From the IMG/VR virus record IMGVR_UViG_3300010883_000595, positions 1 through 21,506 of that record: a DNA stretch of 21,506 bases; one strand, 5' to 3'. This document shows, piece by piece, positions 5,337 to 13,099 of this stretch (position 1 is the stretch's first letter; the number at the start of each line of letters is the position of its first letter). The translations under genes and the position numbers were made by a program. The notes below the pieces were generated by a model that was not told the origin of the DNA, made no database searches, and saw nothing but the letters and a program-made list of their open reading frames with translations. This DNA comes from a virus.

Positions 5337-8300
5337 TTACGATCCTCCTCTATTAACTTCAAGTCTATTTTCACCTGTTGTTACTATTGTATAAAAAGCG
5401 TCTTTTGATAAATCATTAAATATTTTAGATTCAAACTTTTGACCACCTTCATTTTGTGTTCCTTTATAATATAATTCATCTAAAATATATTTTGAATTAC
5501 CAATAATAAAATCATGATTTGCTGGATATATCATGTCCAACTCTTCATCTAAATATTTTCCACCATGTGGAACAGTTGATGCTTTTACAAATCCATATGT
5601 TGTACCTAATGGTCTTTCCCCCAAACCTTTAAATGTAGTTAAAAATGTCTTATTTTTTATATCTTTACTATTACTACTTGTATAATCGGTTTCAAAACTA
5701 TCAATTACATCCCCCAAAGCATTATGAGAAAATGAACCTGATAAGGTTTCCACATCTCCAAGAGTTGTAAAAATATTTCTTTCTTCATAATGATATGTAT
5801 TATAATCACCAAGACTTCCAGACCACCCCCAATGAATAAATTGTGTATTGCTTGATCCTGTTCCCCAATTATCTTCTAAATTTCTTTTTGTTTCAACATG
5901 TTTTGTATTAAAGTTTTTTTCACCCCACAAAAAATCCCCATCTATTGTTCTAAAAAGTTCTTCCTCAAATTTTAAAGCAACATCACCACGTCCATGTTTA
6001 ATACTAATACCATCATTAGTAAATAAAGTTCCTTTTTTTGAAGTTTCAAACGATGATGGGAATGAAATTACAGCATCATTGGCATCGTGTAATATCTCAG
6101 CCCCACCAGGTATCGTATACAATATTCCTTTTTTTGGTACTTCAAAACTAGATGGAAATGTAATTACCGGGTCATCGTCATCGTGAAGAACTTCAGTTCC
6201 ACCGGGTATTTTATACAACACACCTTTCTTTGGGGCTTCAAATGACGAAGGAAATGTAATTACCGGGTCATCGTCATCGTGAAGAACTTCAGTTCCACCG
6301 GGTATTTTATATAATATACCTTTCTTTGGTGCTTCAAATGACGAAGGAAATGTAATTGCTGCTTCATCGTCATCATGGAGAACTTCAGTTCCACCGGGTA
6401 TCTTATACAGCGTTCCCTTCTTTGGCGCTTCAAACGATGATGGAAATGTAATTACCGCTTCATCATCATCGTGAAGAACTTCAGTTCCACCAGGTATTTT
6501 ATATAACGTGCCTTTCTTTGGTGCTTCAAAAGATGATGGGAATGTAATTGCCGCTTCATCGTCATCATGTAATACTTCAGTTCCACCAGGTATTTTATAT
6601 AATGTTCCCTCTTTCGGAGCTTCATATGACGAAGGAAATGAAATAGCAACTTCATCGTCATCATGTAATACTGCAGTTCCACCAGGTATTTTATATAATG
6701 TTCCTTTTGGTGGTGTTGCAAATTCTGATGGGAATGTGATTACTGGTTCATCGTCATCATGTAATACTTCAGTTCCACCAGGTATTTTATATAATGTACC
6801 TTCTGGTGGTATTACAAATTCTGATGGAAATGTAATTGCCGCTTCATCATCGTCATGGAGAACTTCAGTTCCGCCGGGTATCTTATACAATGTACCTTCT
6901 GGTGGTATTACAAATTCCGTTGGAAGGGAAATAGCCACATCATCATCCTCGTGTAATACTTCTTTACCGGTAGGTATTTTATATAATAACCCTTCAACCT
7001 TTTTAACTTCACCATCTAGTGGAAGAATATTTTCAATCTTCATTGGGCTGTCAGTAAAATGTACTGAATCATCAATATTAACTATCTCCTTAATTCCCAA
7101 TTTAGATAACGGGCTCCCTTTAAAAGTATCTAAATGTTGTAAACCATCTTTACCTGTTTTCTGATGCATATATACGACTTCTTTATGATCTGTAACTCCT
7201 TGTATTGTTCCTTCAATGCGTTGTTCAAAAAATTGAATTCTATGATTATGTATTTTATTTCTTTCCAAATATGTTGGTTTTAAATGTACTCCTATTTTAG
7301 AAAGAGTAGCCCGCGCTGGAATAAGTCTTTTTATAGAAGTCATTAATGATTTATCAAATATAGCTAACTGAGCTCTAATGTATGTATTAACATTCATTGA
7401 CACATCATAATGATCCATAAAATCTCTAGTAAAATCTTTTAAATCTTTATATTCCCCCCTATAAATGTCTTGTGGGTTTGCAAATTTATCATTTATATCG
7501 AAATTACCAAGTTTTTCTGTTATAAATTCATTTATAGTATCTTGTGGTGATCTAACAATTTCGACTAGACTTGAAGCTTTTCGTTCATTTACTAAAGGAT
7601 CAAAAATTGTTAATTTACTAAATTTAAGTGGATTTAAATTATTTATAGTTCTAACATTTGTATCTAATAAAATATTATTTACATCCCATTGGGGTGAAGA
7701 TCCCATACTTCTAAATCCAAATTGTATTCTATCAATTTGATCTTCATCATATAAAGATCCAGTGAATGCTAGTGAGTTGGATATATCGGCATTAAATGGT
7801 ATAGAATAATCTTTTAAAGTTTTGGGGTTAGAATCCTTAAATACTAAAGATTTTGCGCCAGGTATATAATTTTCATTTAATTTAAAATGATAAATTAAAT
7901 TATATCTAGATGACAATACAGTATTTCCAGAAACACTCTTTTTATCTAAAACATGCGTTTTAAATACCGAAGCACTTAATGCGTTTTTCCAAACTCTTAA
8001 TTCTGCCATAGAACCTGTATATGTTCCACCGATAATTAAATTTTCACCTGTAGCGGGGTTTCTACTACCAGTTGAAGTCCAATTGTCTATACTAATAGCA
8101 TCAACATCAACACTATCTATTGAAGCTTTATCTAAATGAAGAATTAAATCTCCACGTTGTTCAGCAGTATAAAGTTCAAAATCACCGGATGCTTTTCTCT
8201 GTAATAGAACATTCCAAAAATTTTGATTTTTAAAATTCTTATAATCACTTGACATTGAAACTCTATTTGCAATGCTTGTAATTGTCGAAGTACCATCTTC

Positions 8301-10748
8301 CGTAGTATTTAATCTAAATTGTAATCTTGATTTTGTATCATCACTTTCAAATGGCTGTAAAACTACTTGCCATAATTCTTCATCAGTATTACCAACACTG
8401 TTTAAAATAGTTTGAGTATTTGTTCCTTTTACTGGTTTAAAAATAAATTCTATTGCTTCACCAGCTACATCATCTCTTGCCCATTCCGCTTTAATTCTTT
8501 TATTTGAATCATCTATAACATATGAAACCAACTTATCTTTTTTATCGTTATATGAAACATTACCACCAGTTCCACCAACACCATCCAATAAATTAGATGT
8601 ATCATCTGTTAAAGCCGTTCCCTCTACCAACGAAGCGCCGTGTTCTCTTAATACTAATATGTCTGGCGGGAAACCATATGAATTTAATAAAGCCCTTATA
8701 CTATTCTGCGTTCCTTTTGTTTTATAAATATAATTTAAATTATTGAGTATGTTTCTCCAAACAGAATTTTTAACATCTGCATTTTTATTAATATTGGATA
8801 ATTCAGTTCCTAAATATTCAACAAGTCTACTACCACTTCCACCATATGGAAGCATAAATTCCCAATTCTTACTTTCAGCTATAGCTGGTAAAATATTAGT
8901 AGGAACTGATTCCTCCTCTGGATATTGTAAACTAGTAAATGATTGATAAGTATCAATGTAATTTTTAATTATATCAAATTGTTCTCCAATCATATCAACA
9001 AATTTTCTTAAATTTGTATTGTCTTGATGGGATTCAATTGTGTAGTATTCTGGTAAATTGCTATATAAACGATGTAAATTTATATCATCATATAAAGAAG
9101 CAGATACATATTGATCATCATACCAATTTTCAAATTGTGCCGAGCCAGTTTTGTATATATTTGAAAACGGTACATAATCAATTGGATTATATTTTGATAT
9201 TTTCATATCCGCTAAAAAAGATGAAGTGGTTGCTGTACCATAATCGGTATTAATATGTATTCTAAATAATTCTCCTGCAGGTAAAATAGAACCAGTAAAA
9301 AATACTCCACTACCTGTAACAACAGTTGCTAAATTAGTATATCTATTACCAACTCTTATACCATAAGACCCAGAAACTTTATTTCCATGTAAAACATTTA
9401 TTCTATCAGAGCCGGCATTAAAATTATGTATTCCCCCCGGACCACCAACTATTGGCTGTGACTCTACTGGAACAAAATATGACATTGAAGCATGATAAAT
9501 ATATCTCTGCCAAGAACCAGATGTTATAGACGGTTGAAGAATAGAACTTGTATATAGAGTATCGTGTGGTAATTTCGGTACAGAATTTGGATTATTGTTT
9601 GTCCAAACAATATTATTATTAATAGTTTCATCACCCTTCATTAAGAATGATAAATAAAATGAACCACTATCATTGTAAAATGGTTTATTCTCTACTTCAT
9701 ATTTTCCTCTAAATAATTCAATAGCTTTATCAGAATTAGAACCAGAAACTTTGTATACCATATCAAACCCATCATATCCGGGAAGACGTTTTAAATTCTT
9801 ACCACGTACAGGTGTATTGGCTATATAATTATCACCAATTGTTAAATTATACTTAAATCCCCCCTTATGGGAATTATAATAAAGGTAATTTTCATATGGG
9901 GTAAACTCATTTTTCTCTTTTTGTATTTTTTCAAAAAAAGTTCTTCTTGAATTATTAACTGCGGTTGATTGTGCACTAGCGGTTGAATATAAAGATTGTG
10001 AAATCTTATTCAAATGACCTTCTATTCTTCCAACTTTTTCCTTAAAATTTTCAAGTTTAGAGACAGCAGATCCAAAATATGTAAAATTTTCAAAATTATT
10101 ATATTTAATTTTTAAATTAACATCAGGGCTTCCAGATATAATATTATTAAAAACTGAAGCATCTGAAAATGATCCAGTTAACTCATTATAAGTTTCAAAC
10201 TTTACATTAATAGAATCAGGATTTCCTACCTCATCAAGCATCCCCCTATCATAATCCAACCCACGCAACTCTGGTGTTGGTGGAGTTTCTGGTATATAAT
10301 AAACATCTTGTTCATATGAATTTATTATTTGTTCTTCAATGGAAATTAAATCTAAAGCTGATATAGAGGTTGGTAATGGATTAAGTAACTTAATTACAAC
10401 TGAAGGTATAGTATCCGAACTTAGTCCAATTAAATCTATATCTTCTACTTCAATATTAATAATCGGAATCATTTGATTAGTTTTTGAAACTATTACATAA
10501 TCATCTGTACTTCCATTTAGTAAATCTTTTAAATAACCTACTATTAATCTAATAATAGCTGGTTGAGGTCCTGGTGAAAAATAATTAGCATCTTCAGTTG
10601 GTATATATTTTGGACCCATTGTTCCATCATCAAAATTACCGTTAACCGTTCCAAATATGTAATAATTTACATCATTACTACCTATGGAACTTAAAGTTAC
10701 TCTAAGCTCTTTTCTCGATGGTGATATTTCTTTTACTATAAATCTCAT
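5337..10748 (-). CDS. Giant baseplate wedge protein: P2 gpI / T4 gp7-like with LamG-like insert and ten 32-residue repeats
   Basis: 1803 residues. Residues 1-570 are beta-rich with a short coiled-coil-like stretch near 228-275. Residues about 575-715 resemble phage tail protein I: a helical stretch, ILPAIAESKNWEFM (619-632), then SVWRNILNNLNYIYKTKGTQ followed by NSIRALLNSYGFPP. Residues about 738-960 look like a LamG/concanavalin-type sandwich (IEFIFKP, FWNVLLQRK, GSMAELRVWKNALS, LIYHFKLNENY). Residues about 1050-1170 are helical (RDFMDHYD, RLIPARATLSKIG). Residues 1254-1573 are ten exact-length 32-residue repeats, and 1574-1803 a unique C-terminal region. The gp25-gp6-gpI/gp7 set forms the conserved wedge of contractile tails, so this is the likely third wedge partner, greatly enlarged. 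The ATG overlaps the previous stop (TAATG), with AGAGAA upstream. Both the LamG-like fold and the gp7 equivalence are inferred. Confidence 0.7.
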   Translation of the reverse strand: MRFIVKEISPSRKELRVTLSSIGSNDVNYYIFGTVNGNFDDGTMGPKYIPTEDANYFSPGPQPAIIRLIVGYLKDLLNGSTDDYVIVSKTNQMIPIINIEVEDIDLIGLSSDTIPSVVIKLLNPLPTSISALDLISIEEQIINSYEQDVYYIPETPPTPELRGLDYDRGMLDEVGNPDSINVKFETYNELTGSFSDASVFNNIISGSPDVNLKIKYNNFENFTYFGSAVSKLENFKEKVGRIEGHLNKISQSLYSTASAQSTAVNNSRRTFFEKIQKEKNEFTPYENYLYYNSHKGGFKYNLTIGDNYIANTPVRGKNLKRLPGYDGFDMVYKVSGSNSDKAIELFRGKYEVENKPFYNDSGSFYLSFLMKGDETINNNIVWTNNNPNSVPKLPHDTLYTSSILQPSITSGSWQRYIYHASMSYFVPVESQPIVGGPGGIHNFNAGSDRINVLHGNKVSGSYGIRVGNRYTNLATVVTGSGVFFTGSILPAGELFRIHINTDYGTATTSSFLADMKISKYNPIDYVPFSNIYKTGSAQFENWYDDQYVSASLYDDINLHRLYSNLPEYYTIESHQDNTNLRKFVDMIGEQFDIIKNYIDTYQSFTSLQYPEEESVPTNILPAIAESKNWEFMLPYGGSGSRLVEYLGTELSNINKNADVKNSVWRNILNNLNYIYKTKGTQNSIRALLNSYGFPPDILVLREHGASLVEGTALTDDTSNLLDGVGGTGGNVSYNDKKDKLVSYVIDDSNKRIKAEWARDDVAGEAIEFIFKPVKGTNTQTILNSVGNTDEELWQVVLQPFESDDTKSRLQFRLNTTEDGTSTITSIANRVSMSSDYKNFKNQNFWNVLLQRKASGDFELYTAEQRGDLILHLDKASIDSVDVDAISIDNWTSTGSRNPATGENLIIGGTYTGSMAELRVWKNALSASVFKTHVLDKKSVSGNTVLSSRYNLIYHFKLNENYIPGAKSLVFKDSNPKTLKDYSIPFNADISNSLAFTGSLYDEDQIDRIQFGFRSMGSSPQWDVNNILLDTNVRTINNLNPLKFSKLTIFDPLVNERKASSLVEIVRSPQDTINEFITEKLGNFDINDKFANPQDIYRGEYKDLKDFTRDFMDHYDVSMNVNTYIRAQLAIFDKSLMTSIKRLIPARATLSKIGVHLKPTYLERNKIHNHRIQFFEQRIEGTIQGVTDHKEVVYMHQKTGKDGLQHLDTFKGSPLSKLGIKEIVNIDDSVHFTDSPMKIENILPLDGEVKKVEGLLYKIPTGKEVLHEDDDVAISLPTEFVIPPEGTLYKIPGGTEVLHDDDEAAITFPSEFVIPPEGTLYKIPGGTEVLHDDDEPVITFPSEFATPPKGTLYKIPGGTAVLHDDDEVAISFPSSYEAPKEGTLYKIPGGTEVLHDDDEAAITFPSSFEAPKKGTLYKIPGGTEVLHDDDEAVITFPSSFEAPKKGTLYKIPGGTEVLHDDDEAAITFPSSFEAPKKGILYKIPGGTEVLHDDDDPVITFPSSFEAPKKGVLYKIPGGTEVLHDDDDPVITFPSSFEVPKKGILYTIPGGAEILHDANDAVISFPSSFETSKKGTLFTNDGISIKHGRGDVALKFEEELFRTIDGDFLWGEKNFNTKHVETKRNLEDNWGTGSSNTQFIHWGWSGSLGDYNTYHYEERNIFTTLGDVETLSGSFSHNALGDVIDSFETDYTSSNSKDIKNKTFLTTFKGLGERPLGTTYGFVKASTVPHGGKYLDEELDMIYPANHDFIIGNSKYILDELYYKGTQNEGGQKFESKIFNDLSKDAFYTIVTTGENRLEVNRGGS
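6030..6989 (-). repeat. Ten in-frame 96-base (32-residue) tandem repeats
   Basis: The array is exactly 960 bases: units begin at 6989 and step by 96. A typical unit starts TLYKIPGGTEVLHDDDE, then has A/P-A/V-I-T/S-F-P-S, and ends in A-P-K-K-G or I-P-P-E-G. Units 2-9 are closely alike. Units 1 and 10 are diverged, and a decayed eleventh (TLFTNDGISIKHG) follows. Units 8 and 9 share about 60 identical bases, indicating recent duplication or gene conversion. Other pairs differ mainly at synonymous sites. Confidence 0.95.
7869..8537 (-). other. LamG/concanavalin-like domain inside the giant protein
   Basis: Residues about 738-960 show alternating strands ending in G-S-M-A-E-L-R-V-W-K-N-A-L-S, the usual last-strand signature of LamG-type laminin/pentraxin sandwiches, which often bind glycans. 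Boundaries are approximate and glycan binding is inferred. Confidence 0.5.
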
Positions 10749-13099
10749 TAATATATTCTCTTTTTACTTCTTCTTTTAAGTTTTCTCAATCCTCTAGATT
10801 TTTTTCTAAGTTTTCTAGCTTTTCTTAAAGGAATAACTTTCTTATCTTTAGATTTTATTCCTAATTTTTTTCTTAAATTTCTTCTAGCGGGTAATTTTTG
10901 ATATGGCACATCTATTTTAGAATAATCTATAGATTCATATCCCGTTTTAAGGTCTGTAATAACAGCTCTTTGTGGAACATCATCGGCTATAGCACCACGA
11001 TATTTACCTTCTTCATAAACTTCACTAGTTTTAGATGATGCAGTCATCAATCCTGGATCTTTATACTCAAATTCATATACATTAACTCCCAAAGGAGATT
11101 GCCCAATCAATTTAATATTCTTTTTAAGTCTTCTATCACTTTTCCACCATTTTTTCTTTTTCTTACGTTTTTTCTTTTTCTTGAACGTAAAGATTTTTTT
11201 AAGTTTTTTTCTAACTTTTTTGGGGGCTCTAAGCTTTCTTTTCAATTTCTTTGAGACTTTAAGTTTCCTTTTCAATCTCTTTGGAACTCTCAATCTTTTT
11301 TTGAGTTTTTTTGAGGGCTTAAATCTCCTTTTCATTTTCTTTGAAACTGTGAATCTTTTTTTAATTCCCCGTTTAGCCACCGAAAGCATAGCTTTTGCAA
11401 CATTTCTAACTTTTTTAGGTGGAAGTATTTTTCTCCTAATTTTCTTTGGAACTGTAAATTTCCTTCTTATTTTCTTTGGAACTGTAAATGCTTTCTTTAC
11501 TCTAGCTTTTACCTTTTTAATTTTAGCTCTGGCTATTTCTCTCTTGCTTCTTTCCTCATTTCTTTCAGCTGCCGACTCACGTCTTTCCTCATTTCTCTCA
11601 CGCCTATCTTCATTTTTTTGGTGTTCGTTTCTGCGGTTATCCTCCCGATCTTGAAAAGTTCCATCCAGTTCAGCAAGTCTTCTATTAAGCTGTTGTTGCA
11701 TACGAGCTTCTAATATTTCAACTCTTCTATCATATGCTAAATCACGTCTTTGGTTTTTTCTTTGCATTCGTTTTAAATAATTCACCGTATGATTTTTGAG
11801 CATTCTTTGCCGGGCTCGAGTACTTTTCTCCAAATACTGAACTTTTTTATTATATCTACTTCGCAAAAGAGCTTCCAACCGTAATCTATATGCAACATTA
11901 CTTCCACGACCACTACGTGGTTTTTTAGGTATTTTAAATATTACAGGCTTTCTTGTTCTGATTTCAGGGAAAACTTTTTTTCTTCTTGTTGCACCTTTTT
12001 TGATTTTTTTAAAATCAAATTTATCACCGAATAACTTCCAACCCCACCATTTTCTACCCACCACGGATGATCTAGATGCAAGTTCAAAACGAATATCAGT
12101 AAAATATCTTCTACCATCTGTATCGTTACTAGCCCGTTTTGTAGTTTGAGAGCCAACCCTCCAATAAACAATACCATCTTTACATTCACCAACACTAAAT
12201 TGTAAATACCTTCTTTCCCAAATTAAATCACCAATTACTTTTCTACTATTTTTATCGGCTATCCATCCTGGAACACCCATATCCGTACTTTTAATTACAT
12301 TATTTCCAGCTAACTGAAATAGATGAAATGATCCATCGTATCCACTAAAGTCATCATCATAAGCAACCCAGCAGCTAGCAATATATTTTCTATGTGGTTT
12401 TATTCCAGTTATACGCATATCATAATGATTACCAGCAAAGCCATCTTGTTCTAATACAAATTTACCTAATCCGGGATTAGGCACTTCAACAAAATTATTT
12501 AATCCGGATGATCTATCCAAATCCCCAGTTTGGGTTGCTTCTAATCCAGCAAAAAAGTTTCCATTTTCTATAAAATTATTTTTTAATATTTCAAGTAATC
12601 TACTTATATTGGATATGACATTTCTCAAAAAATGAACTTTTAATATAAACTTTCCTTTACCAAGACCAATTAAGCTAATAATTTCATTTGGTTTAATATA
12701 AATCTCATGATTTTTATCCTCATATATTTCAATTTGTTTTCTATATAAATCAGAAGGAACATCTGGTGGACTACTATCAAAATTAACTGGAGTTGGGATT
12801 AATTCAAGTTTTGGTTTTCCTTCCTCCACCCGCTCACGACCTTGCATAAATTTATTAGTATCTTCTTCAAAGTGATAATCACCAAAATAATAAGTATTAC
12901 CTTGTAATCTATTTCTTGCTCCCGGACCTGGATATCTAAGTAAAATCCTATTTGAATATAATATATTTAAAATAGTGTTATTCTCGTCAAATAGCTCTAC
13001 TTTAAGATAATCACCATTTTTTTTATCAAAATCTTTTAATGATTTATCTAATTTTATCTCTTCTAATATTTGATCACTATATAATTCTATTGTTTTCAT
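10748..13099 (-). CDS. Polybasic fibre-like protein with C-terminal S74 intramolecular chaperone domain
   Basis: 783 residues. Residues 1-170 are probably a baseplate-attachment region. Residues about 175-345 look like a carbohydrate-binding-type beta sandwich (NHYDMRI-TGIKPHRKYIAS, YLQFSVGE, YFTDIRFEL). Residues about 395-530 are a charged helix rich in Arg/Glu (ERNEERR). Residues 538-632 hold decapeptide repeats such as FTVPKKIRRK, followed by a near-pure polylysine stretch to residue 650. S654 begins SDRRLKKNI, then GVNVYEFEYK, KYRGAIADDVP and SIDYSKIDVPY. This is the S74 chaperone seen in phage tailspikes and fibres, which trimerises, assists folding and cuts itself off just before the Ser. 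S654 and K659 have the expected Ser-x4-Lys spacing. A further 50 residues, again very basic, follow. The ATG at 13099 overlaps the previous stop (TAATG). A role as a trimeric fibre or spike is inferred. Confidence 0.7.
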   Translation of the reverse strand: MKTIELYSDQILEEIKLDKSLKDFDKKNGDYLKVELFDENNTILNILYSNRILLRYPGPGARNRLQGNTYYFGDYHFEEDTNKFMQGRERVEEGKPKLELIPTPVNFDSSPPDVPSDLYRKQIEIYEDKNHEIYIKPNEIISLIGLGKGKFILKVHFLRNVISNISRLLEILKNNFIENGNFFAGLEATQTGDLDRSSGLNNFVEVPNPGLGKFVLEQDGFAGNHYDMRITGIKPHRKYIASCWVAYDDDFSGYDGSFHLFQLAGNNVIKSTDMGVPGWIADKNSRKVIGDLIWERRYLQFSVGECKDGIVYWRVGSQTTKRASNDTDGRRYFTDIRFELASRSSVVGRKWWGWKLFGDKFDFKKIKKGATRRKKVFPEIRTRKPVIFKIPKKPRSGRGSNVAYRLRLEALLRSRYNKKVQYLEKSTRARQRMLKNHTVNYLKRMQRKNQRRDLAYDRRVEILEARMQQQLNRRLAELDGTFQDREDNRRNEHQKNEDRRERNEERRESAAERNEERSKREIARAKIKKVKARVKKAFTVPKKIRRKFTVPKKIRRKILPPKKVRNVAKAMLSVAKRGIKKRFTVSKKMKRRFKPSKKLKKRLRVPKRLKRKLKVSKKLKRKLRAPKKVRKKLKKIFTFKKKKKRKKKKKWWKSDRRLKKNIKLIGQSPLGVNVYEFEYKDPGLMTASSKTSEVYEEGKYRGAIADDVPQRAVITDLKTGYESIDYSKIDVPYQKLPARRNLRKKLGIKSKDKKVIPLRKARKLRKKSRGLRKLKRRSKKRIY
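10901..11140 (-). other. S74 peptidase/chaperone domain with predicted self-cleavage site
   Basis: Residues 654-733. S654-D-R-R-L-K659 supplies the expected Ser-Lys pair, and the predicted cut lies between K653 and S654. It is short compared with the endosialidase-type S74 domain and matches the compact version common in marine phages. Confidence 0.7.
11150..11182 (-). repeat. Polylysine-encoding purine tract
   Basis: Residues 640-650 are ten Lys and one Arg, encoded by a nearly pure A/G run on the coding strand. Such a run is prone to slippage in sequencing and ribosomal frameshifting. The frame stays open into the S74 domain, so the assembled sequence is probably right. Confidence 0.8.
11204..11488 (-). 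repeat. Decapeptide Lys/Arg repeats (30-base units)
   Basis: Eight units follow the pattern F/L-x-V/P-P/S-K-K-I/L/M/V-R/K-R/K-K: residues 538-567 (three units) and 583-632 (five units), separated by a 15-residue spacer containing AKAMLSVAKRGI. The first two units are identical, FTVPKKIRRK. Conserved hydrophobic and Pro/Ser positions show this is a true repeat and not just random basic sequence. Confidence 0.85.

Follow-up and report, generated by a model that had tools for sequence, protein, structure and literature searches.

A 21,506-base virus record, analysed here over its whole length (the window) and representing a fragment of a contractile-tail phage, encodes a wedge-like baseplate protein in which ten perfectly phased 32-residue repeats lie between two conserved domains. 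The units of this array are old, their protein sequence is under selection, they have exchanged sequence with one another through conversion tracts, and in relatives the array is replaced by other, unrelated arrays. We suggest that the array forms an arm of variable length, made up of hairpin beads, within the C-terminal extension of a wedge protein, presenting the C-terminal domain for docking, and we regard this reading as having about an even chance of being correct. It would offer a specific example, open to testing, of how length can vary in a modular way in the type of wedge protein that is thought to relay the fibre signal to the contracting tail.

The repeat array and its history

The ten units occupy positions 6027-6986 on the minus strand (residues 1255-1574 of a 1,803-residue open reading frame, P0001) and have the consensus LYKIPGGTEVLHDDDEAAITFPSSFEAPKKGT. 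The initial annotation had described ten units of 96 bases without indels, and in the LYKIP register used here this is what the DNA contains; the array is the same one, although the position given for it (6030-6989) is one codon out of phase. Tandem Repeats Finder returns a period of 96 across the stretch, and the tandem-period score of the array is 225.6, whereas none of 60 shuffles exceeded 5.6. In pairwise comparison the ten units are 61-89% identical in DNA and 47-97% identical in protein, and beyond the array identity to the units falls to only 33-41% (over 96 bases) and 9-19% (over 32 residues). The decayed eleventh unit that had also been reported can be recognized at 5958-6026 (-) (residues 1575 to about 1597), where it aligns once small gaps are allowed (P = 0.0015 with unit 10 and 0.03 with the consensus). 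On the other side, a non-conserved linker precedes the array at 6987-7244 (-) (residues 1169-1254); a putative unit 0 upstream of the array was unsupported (P about 0.1).

The age of the units is evident from their synonymous sites, which differ by 52% on average (pS 0.52), compared with 15% for non-synonymous sites; the resulting pN/pS of 0.28 indicates that the protein sequence of the unit is under purifying selection. Superimposed on this divergence are two tracts of shared sequence. Units 8 and 9 have 62 identical bases in common, the longest exact repeat in the array (there is no exact repeat of 71 bases), and their 12 differences cluster outside this stretch (0 of 5,000 permutations); a tract of 48 bases is common to units 3 and 5 (P = 0.0002). 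Both pairs survive correction for the 45 unit pairs tested, narrowly or better. As these tracts are too long given the differences between the units that carry them, we conclude that units have exchanged sequence, that is, that the tracts are conversion tracts. The earlier proposal that copy number is still changing can thus be retained in part: exchange between units has occurred, but because even the closest neighbouring units differ at a third of their synonymous sites (pS 0.33), no recent change in copy number is shown. Among relatives, we found no copy-number variants of the 32-residue unit, and it is therefore the different arrays in relatives that point to a variable length.

The source is a metagenomic contig and the array is known from one copy, which raises the question of an assembly artefact. 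We consider this highly improbable: the longest exact repeat is shorter than usual read lengths (the read length being assumed), so that reads would separate the units; the units are diverged and the reading frame is open; and both flanks of the array are homologous to the closest complete relative within one open reading frame.

The repeat had been presented as unrecognized, and it remains so after comparison with Pfam, NCBIfam, PHROGs and PDB, none of which gave a genuine family match. No relatives of the 32-residue repeat were confirmed in viral contigs, 84,980 prokaryote genomes or 50,697 phage records, in searches that used short patterns or filtered out low-complexity sequence and that a diverged unit could escape. 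The Pfam family eIF_4EBP (PF05456) scores 42.9 bits on the array against a cutoff of 24, an artefact of summing across repeats: the match consists of 26 of 117 positions added up over the units, and the YxxxxL-hydrophobic motif of eIF4E-binding proteins is absent. What the two have in common is a turn sequence resembling GTL[YF]..PGGT..hD, and automatic annotation would fall into the trap of calling the array an eIF4E-binding protein. Together with this match, those to DUF7011 and to NCBIfam MazE were rejected (13-26 residues repeated across units), and phrog_29971 and phrog_13272, which cover only 16-25 residues of the repeat, were not used. The array, which contains no tryptophan, also matches neither MORN (YxGxWxxGxxxG) nor choline-binding repeats (GW, aromatic-rich units).

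The open-licence literature on repeats in the tail and baseplate proteins of phages yielded no description of this unit or of a repeat site that recurs at this position. Repeat-bearing extensions of tail-tip proteins are nevertheless a known kind, to which the 32-residue unit and its recurrent site appear to be new additions. According to PMC9887876 (citing Tetart 1996), the duplications in T4 gp37 and the 7-residue duplications in GP075 of phage K8 are short repeats whose length can change and which affect host range. Like these, the array consists of short tail-tip repeats that may change in length; the precedents concern other proteins, and any link of the array to receptor choice would be hypothetical.

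The wedge-like protein and its post-core site

The array had been assigned to a large protein of a baseplate gene cluster, and the neighbourhood agrees with this assignment. Transcription proceeds in the order P0011, P0010, P0009, P0008, P0007, P0006, P0001, P0005, P0004, P0003, P0002, in which P0011 is gp25-like (GPW_gp25 match) and P0010 is gp6-like (weak Baseplate_J match). Similar to P2 gpI, P0001 (5337-10748 (-)) is encoded after W/gp25-like and J/gp6-like genes, with four genes intervening after the gp6-like gene. Homologues with the same gene neighbours are present in three relatives (L003, L004 and L006), and Mel-JY01, immuto and L003 retain much of the gene order, including a protein of ~220 residues after the wedge protein.

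P0001 contains a conserved core (residues 531-1168) that was found in more than 80 fetched loci. It comprises a helical domain with a KTKGT..SIRALLNSYG motif (Tail_P2_I/gpI-like; 8613-9158 (-), residues 531-712, conserved in an alignment of 64 relatives), a LamG or concanavalin A-like jelly roll (7890-8552 (-), residues about 733-953) and a helical end (7320-7598 (-), residues about 1051-1143, from structure prediction), and closes with PAR...LERxK (residues 1144-1165). An AlphaFold prediction for residues 604-1803, based on an alignment of 64 rows, recovered the helical region with the KTKGT motif, the helical end and a well predicted jelly roll (pLDDT mostly 82-96). Foldseek matched the jelly roll to the thrombospondin-1 N-domain, neurexin and laminin G, and also returned similar long proteins from uncultured phages; Laminin_G_3 matches are found in 11 of 66 relatives. 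As modelled, the domain belongs to the LamG or concanavalin A-like fold, and a PDB sequence search with the core profile gave only LamG-type matches (E 0.016 or worse). Beyond the array, a C-terminal domain (5340-5936 (-), residues about 1605-1803) common to L003, L008, L010 and L011 matches nothing known and is poorly modelled.

Similarity to the known wedge proteins is less direct. Pfam Tail_P2_I (PF09684) gave no match in P0001, and below threshold it was detected in 4 of 66 relatives (E down to 4.7e-4), in one of which the match, examined in detail, lies at the expected place and reaches 13.3 bits, short of the curated cutoff of 20.6. P2 gpI itself aligns to P0001 at its own KGT motif over 28 residues only (hhalign probability 2%), with a score of 19.9 compared with 8.8-15.2 for five shuffles of gpI, a sequence similarity that is suggestive only; sequence similarity of T4 gp7 to P0001 was not detected. 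P0001 resembles the Tail_P2_I family in its place downstream of gp25- and gp6-like genes and may do so in the KGT-centred motif of its helical domain, but the family scores are sub-threshold, P0001 is about ten times longer, and it adds the LamG domain, the array and the C-terminal domain. The wedge subunits T4 gp7 and phage XM1 gp17 share with it their position in the gene cluster and the proposed role, but no repeat array is described for them in the excerpts of PMC10457771 and PMC3004832. We therefore refer to P0001 as wedge-like, that is, as a protein that would function like a gpI or gp7 wedge protein, with membership not proven.

The segment after the core is where relatives differ. The closest complete relative, IMGVR_UViG_3300025131_008477 (L003), is 51% identical overall to P0001 (54% in the core and 45% in the C-terminal domain) and likewise has a repeat array flanked by this core and this C-terminal domain, but one built of 24-residue HISIASHTGSIPTLTVKSVPNRDT units for which no homology to the 32-residue unit is detectable; L008, L010 and L011 retain the C-terminal domain and have no significant array. 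A significant tandem repeat, with a period of mostly 17-19 residues, occurs within the 220 residues after the core in 17 of 67 distinct relatives and within the 220 residues before it in 5 of 67, and tandem scores of at least 8 are reached in 10 relatives after the core compared with none in the preceding control stretch; as the P values were obtained by shuffling the residues of each sequence 100 times and the relatives are not independent, these counts describe a tendency and not a precise rate. As a separate observation, L057, L083, L034, L064 and L018 have their own 18-19-residue arrays after the wedge core, which in L057 (positions 8196-8573) consist of seven NTNTTLDxxELxTxxxYN-like units.

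Predicted structure and possible roles

In the long AlphaFold run, all or nearly all units have predicted strands on LYKI and TEVL(H) flanking PGG, as do most units in a separate five-unit prediction, at a mean pLDDT of 31 for the five units and of about 40 on the array in the long model (about 30-44 overall). Neither prediction contains confident packing between units. Of the beta hairpins or solenoid that had been suggested, these models weakly favour hairpins, which appear isolated and at low confidence, and not a packed solenoid; they support hairpins strung in a row, or an arm that is mostly flexible. Ion binding, also suggested earlier, is unsupported, as the RTX, EF-hand/dockerin and TSP3 motifs (GGxGxD, DxDxDG and DxDxDGxxD) occur zero times in the array and its net charge of about -11 per 100 residues is inside the acidic range of the same region in relatives.

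We propose that P0001 is a wedge protein of the P2 gpI/T4 gp7 functional type. The most likely fold of each unit is a single small beta hairpin, with LYKI and TEVLH on either side of a PGG turn, and an acidic, proline-rich connector would come after it, so that the array would resemble beads on a string. By analogy with XM1 gp17 and T4 gp7, the array would space the conserved C-terminal domain away from the wedge core, and this domain would probably dock a fibre, a spike or a neighbouring peripheral protein, with P0006, which has a basic extension that its homologues lack, as a candidate partner. The position itself may be a hot spot, at which phages of this group build, replace and lose unrelated short-repeat arrays via recombination between units. 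A spacer or arm had already been envisioned in the initial annotation, and both position and precedent argue for it: XM1 gp17 (a gp7 homologue) holds twelve spikes via two unresolved flexible regions, one of which is the C-terminus, and the authors propose that the link between gp17 and the spike relays a signal to the sheath (PMC10457771); T4 gp7 is a monomer, present in six copies per tail and touching gp9 and gp10 (PMC3004832). Counting against the proposed arm are the low pLDDT of the array, given that hairpins could be a default guess for a disordered region, the matchless and poorly modelled C-terminal domain, the weak relationship to gpI and the undetected one to T4 gp7. A wider version, which we hold only tentatively and consider rather unlikely, is that the post-core segment serves as a general cassette site throughout a widespread group of phage wedge proteins. 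Unrelated hairpin-repeat arms of 17-32-residue units would arise and be exchanged there again and again, which would determine how far the fibre docking sites reach and how many there are, and hence host choice; the 32-residue acidic unit would be a new repeat family.

Other roles would place the function in the array itself or deny it one. The exposed and repeated acidic DDD(E/D) motif, the lectin-like LamG domain in the same protein and the finding that short duplications in a wedge protein of phage K8 altered receptor use (PMC9887876) would suit an adhesive or ion-binding receptor arm, in which the acidic turns would together bring about avid binding to the cell surface or to divalent cations. 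We consider this unlikely, because the ion-binding motifs are absent, many relatives with unrelated repeats are similarly acidic in the region, and the repeat is conserved rather than diversified within the array. Disordered and largely dispensable filler, maintained through slippage and through weak selection for solubility, would fit the very low prediction confidence, the acidic and proline-rich composition and the relatives that have the C-terminal domain without an array; it is improbable in view of the pN/pS ratio, the unchanged frame and length of all ten units and the conservation of hydrophobic and Pro-Gly positions.

Also quite improbable is an electrostatic pairing of the acidic array with the basic C-terminal tract of the adjacent P0006, which would fix a fibre to the wedge. 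The two proteins are encoded side by side, and the homologues of P0006 in L003, L009 and L090 lack the basic extension, L003 also having no acidic array, but this amounts to a single complete comparison; in a set of 74 loci, tail acidity and a basic neighbour do not go together (Spearman -0.04, P = 0.76), and we rejected such pairing as a general rule. For the array of P0001, the hairpin arm presenting a docking domain remains our preferred reading.

Neighbouring genes

The very basic C-terminal extension of P0006, which adjoins P0001, comprises 440 residues (10751-12082 (-)). Its basic region has a net charge of about +121 (residues 361-783) and includes a basic tract at 11135-11494 and repeats of about ten residues, for example FTVPKKIRRK; the homologues without the extension are 375-380 residues long. 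Directly after the lysine-rich tract, positions 10973-11143 (-) weakly match the chaperone-like Peptidase_S74 (15.2 bits, where the cutoff is 22) and contain an SDRRLKKNI motif. S74 domains self-cleave, and if the S74-like part of P0006 does so, mature P0006 would end in a basic tail.

Two further pairs of genes look related. P0002 (131-2230 (-)) and P0004 (3205-4539 (-)) match the same L003 proteins, P0002 via its C-terminal half, and thus look like paralogues; P0002 has an additional basic N-terminal part with a PKD-like match. P0008 and P0009 (14276-16408 (-)) match each other's homologues, both with a weak Disaggr_repeat match, and probably represent a tandem gene duplication.
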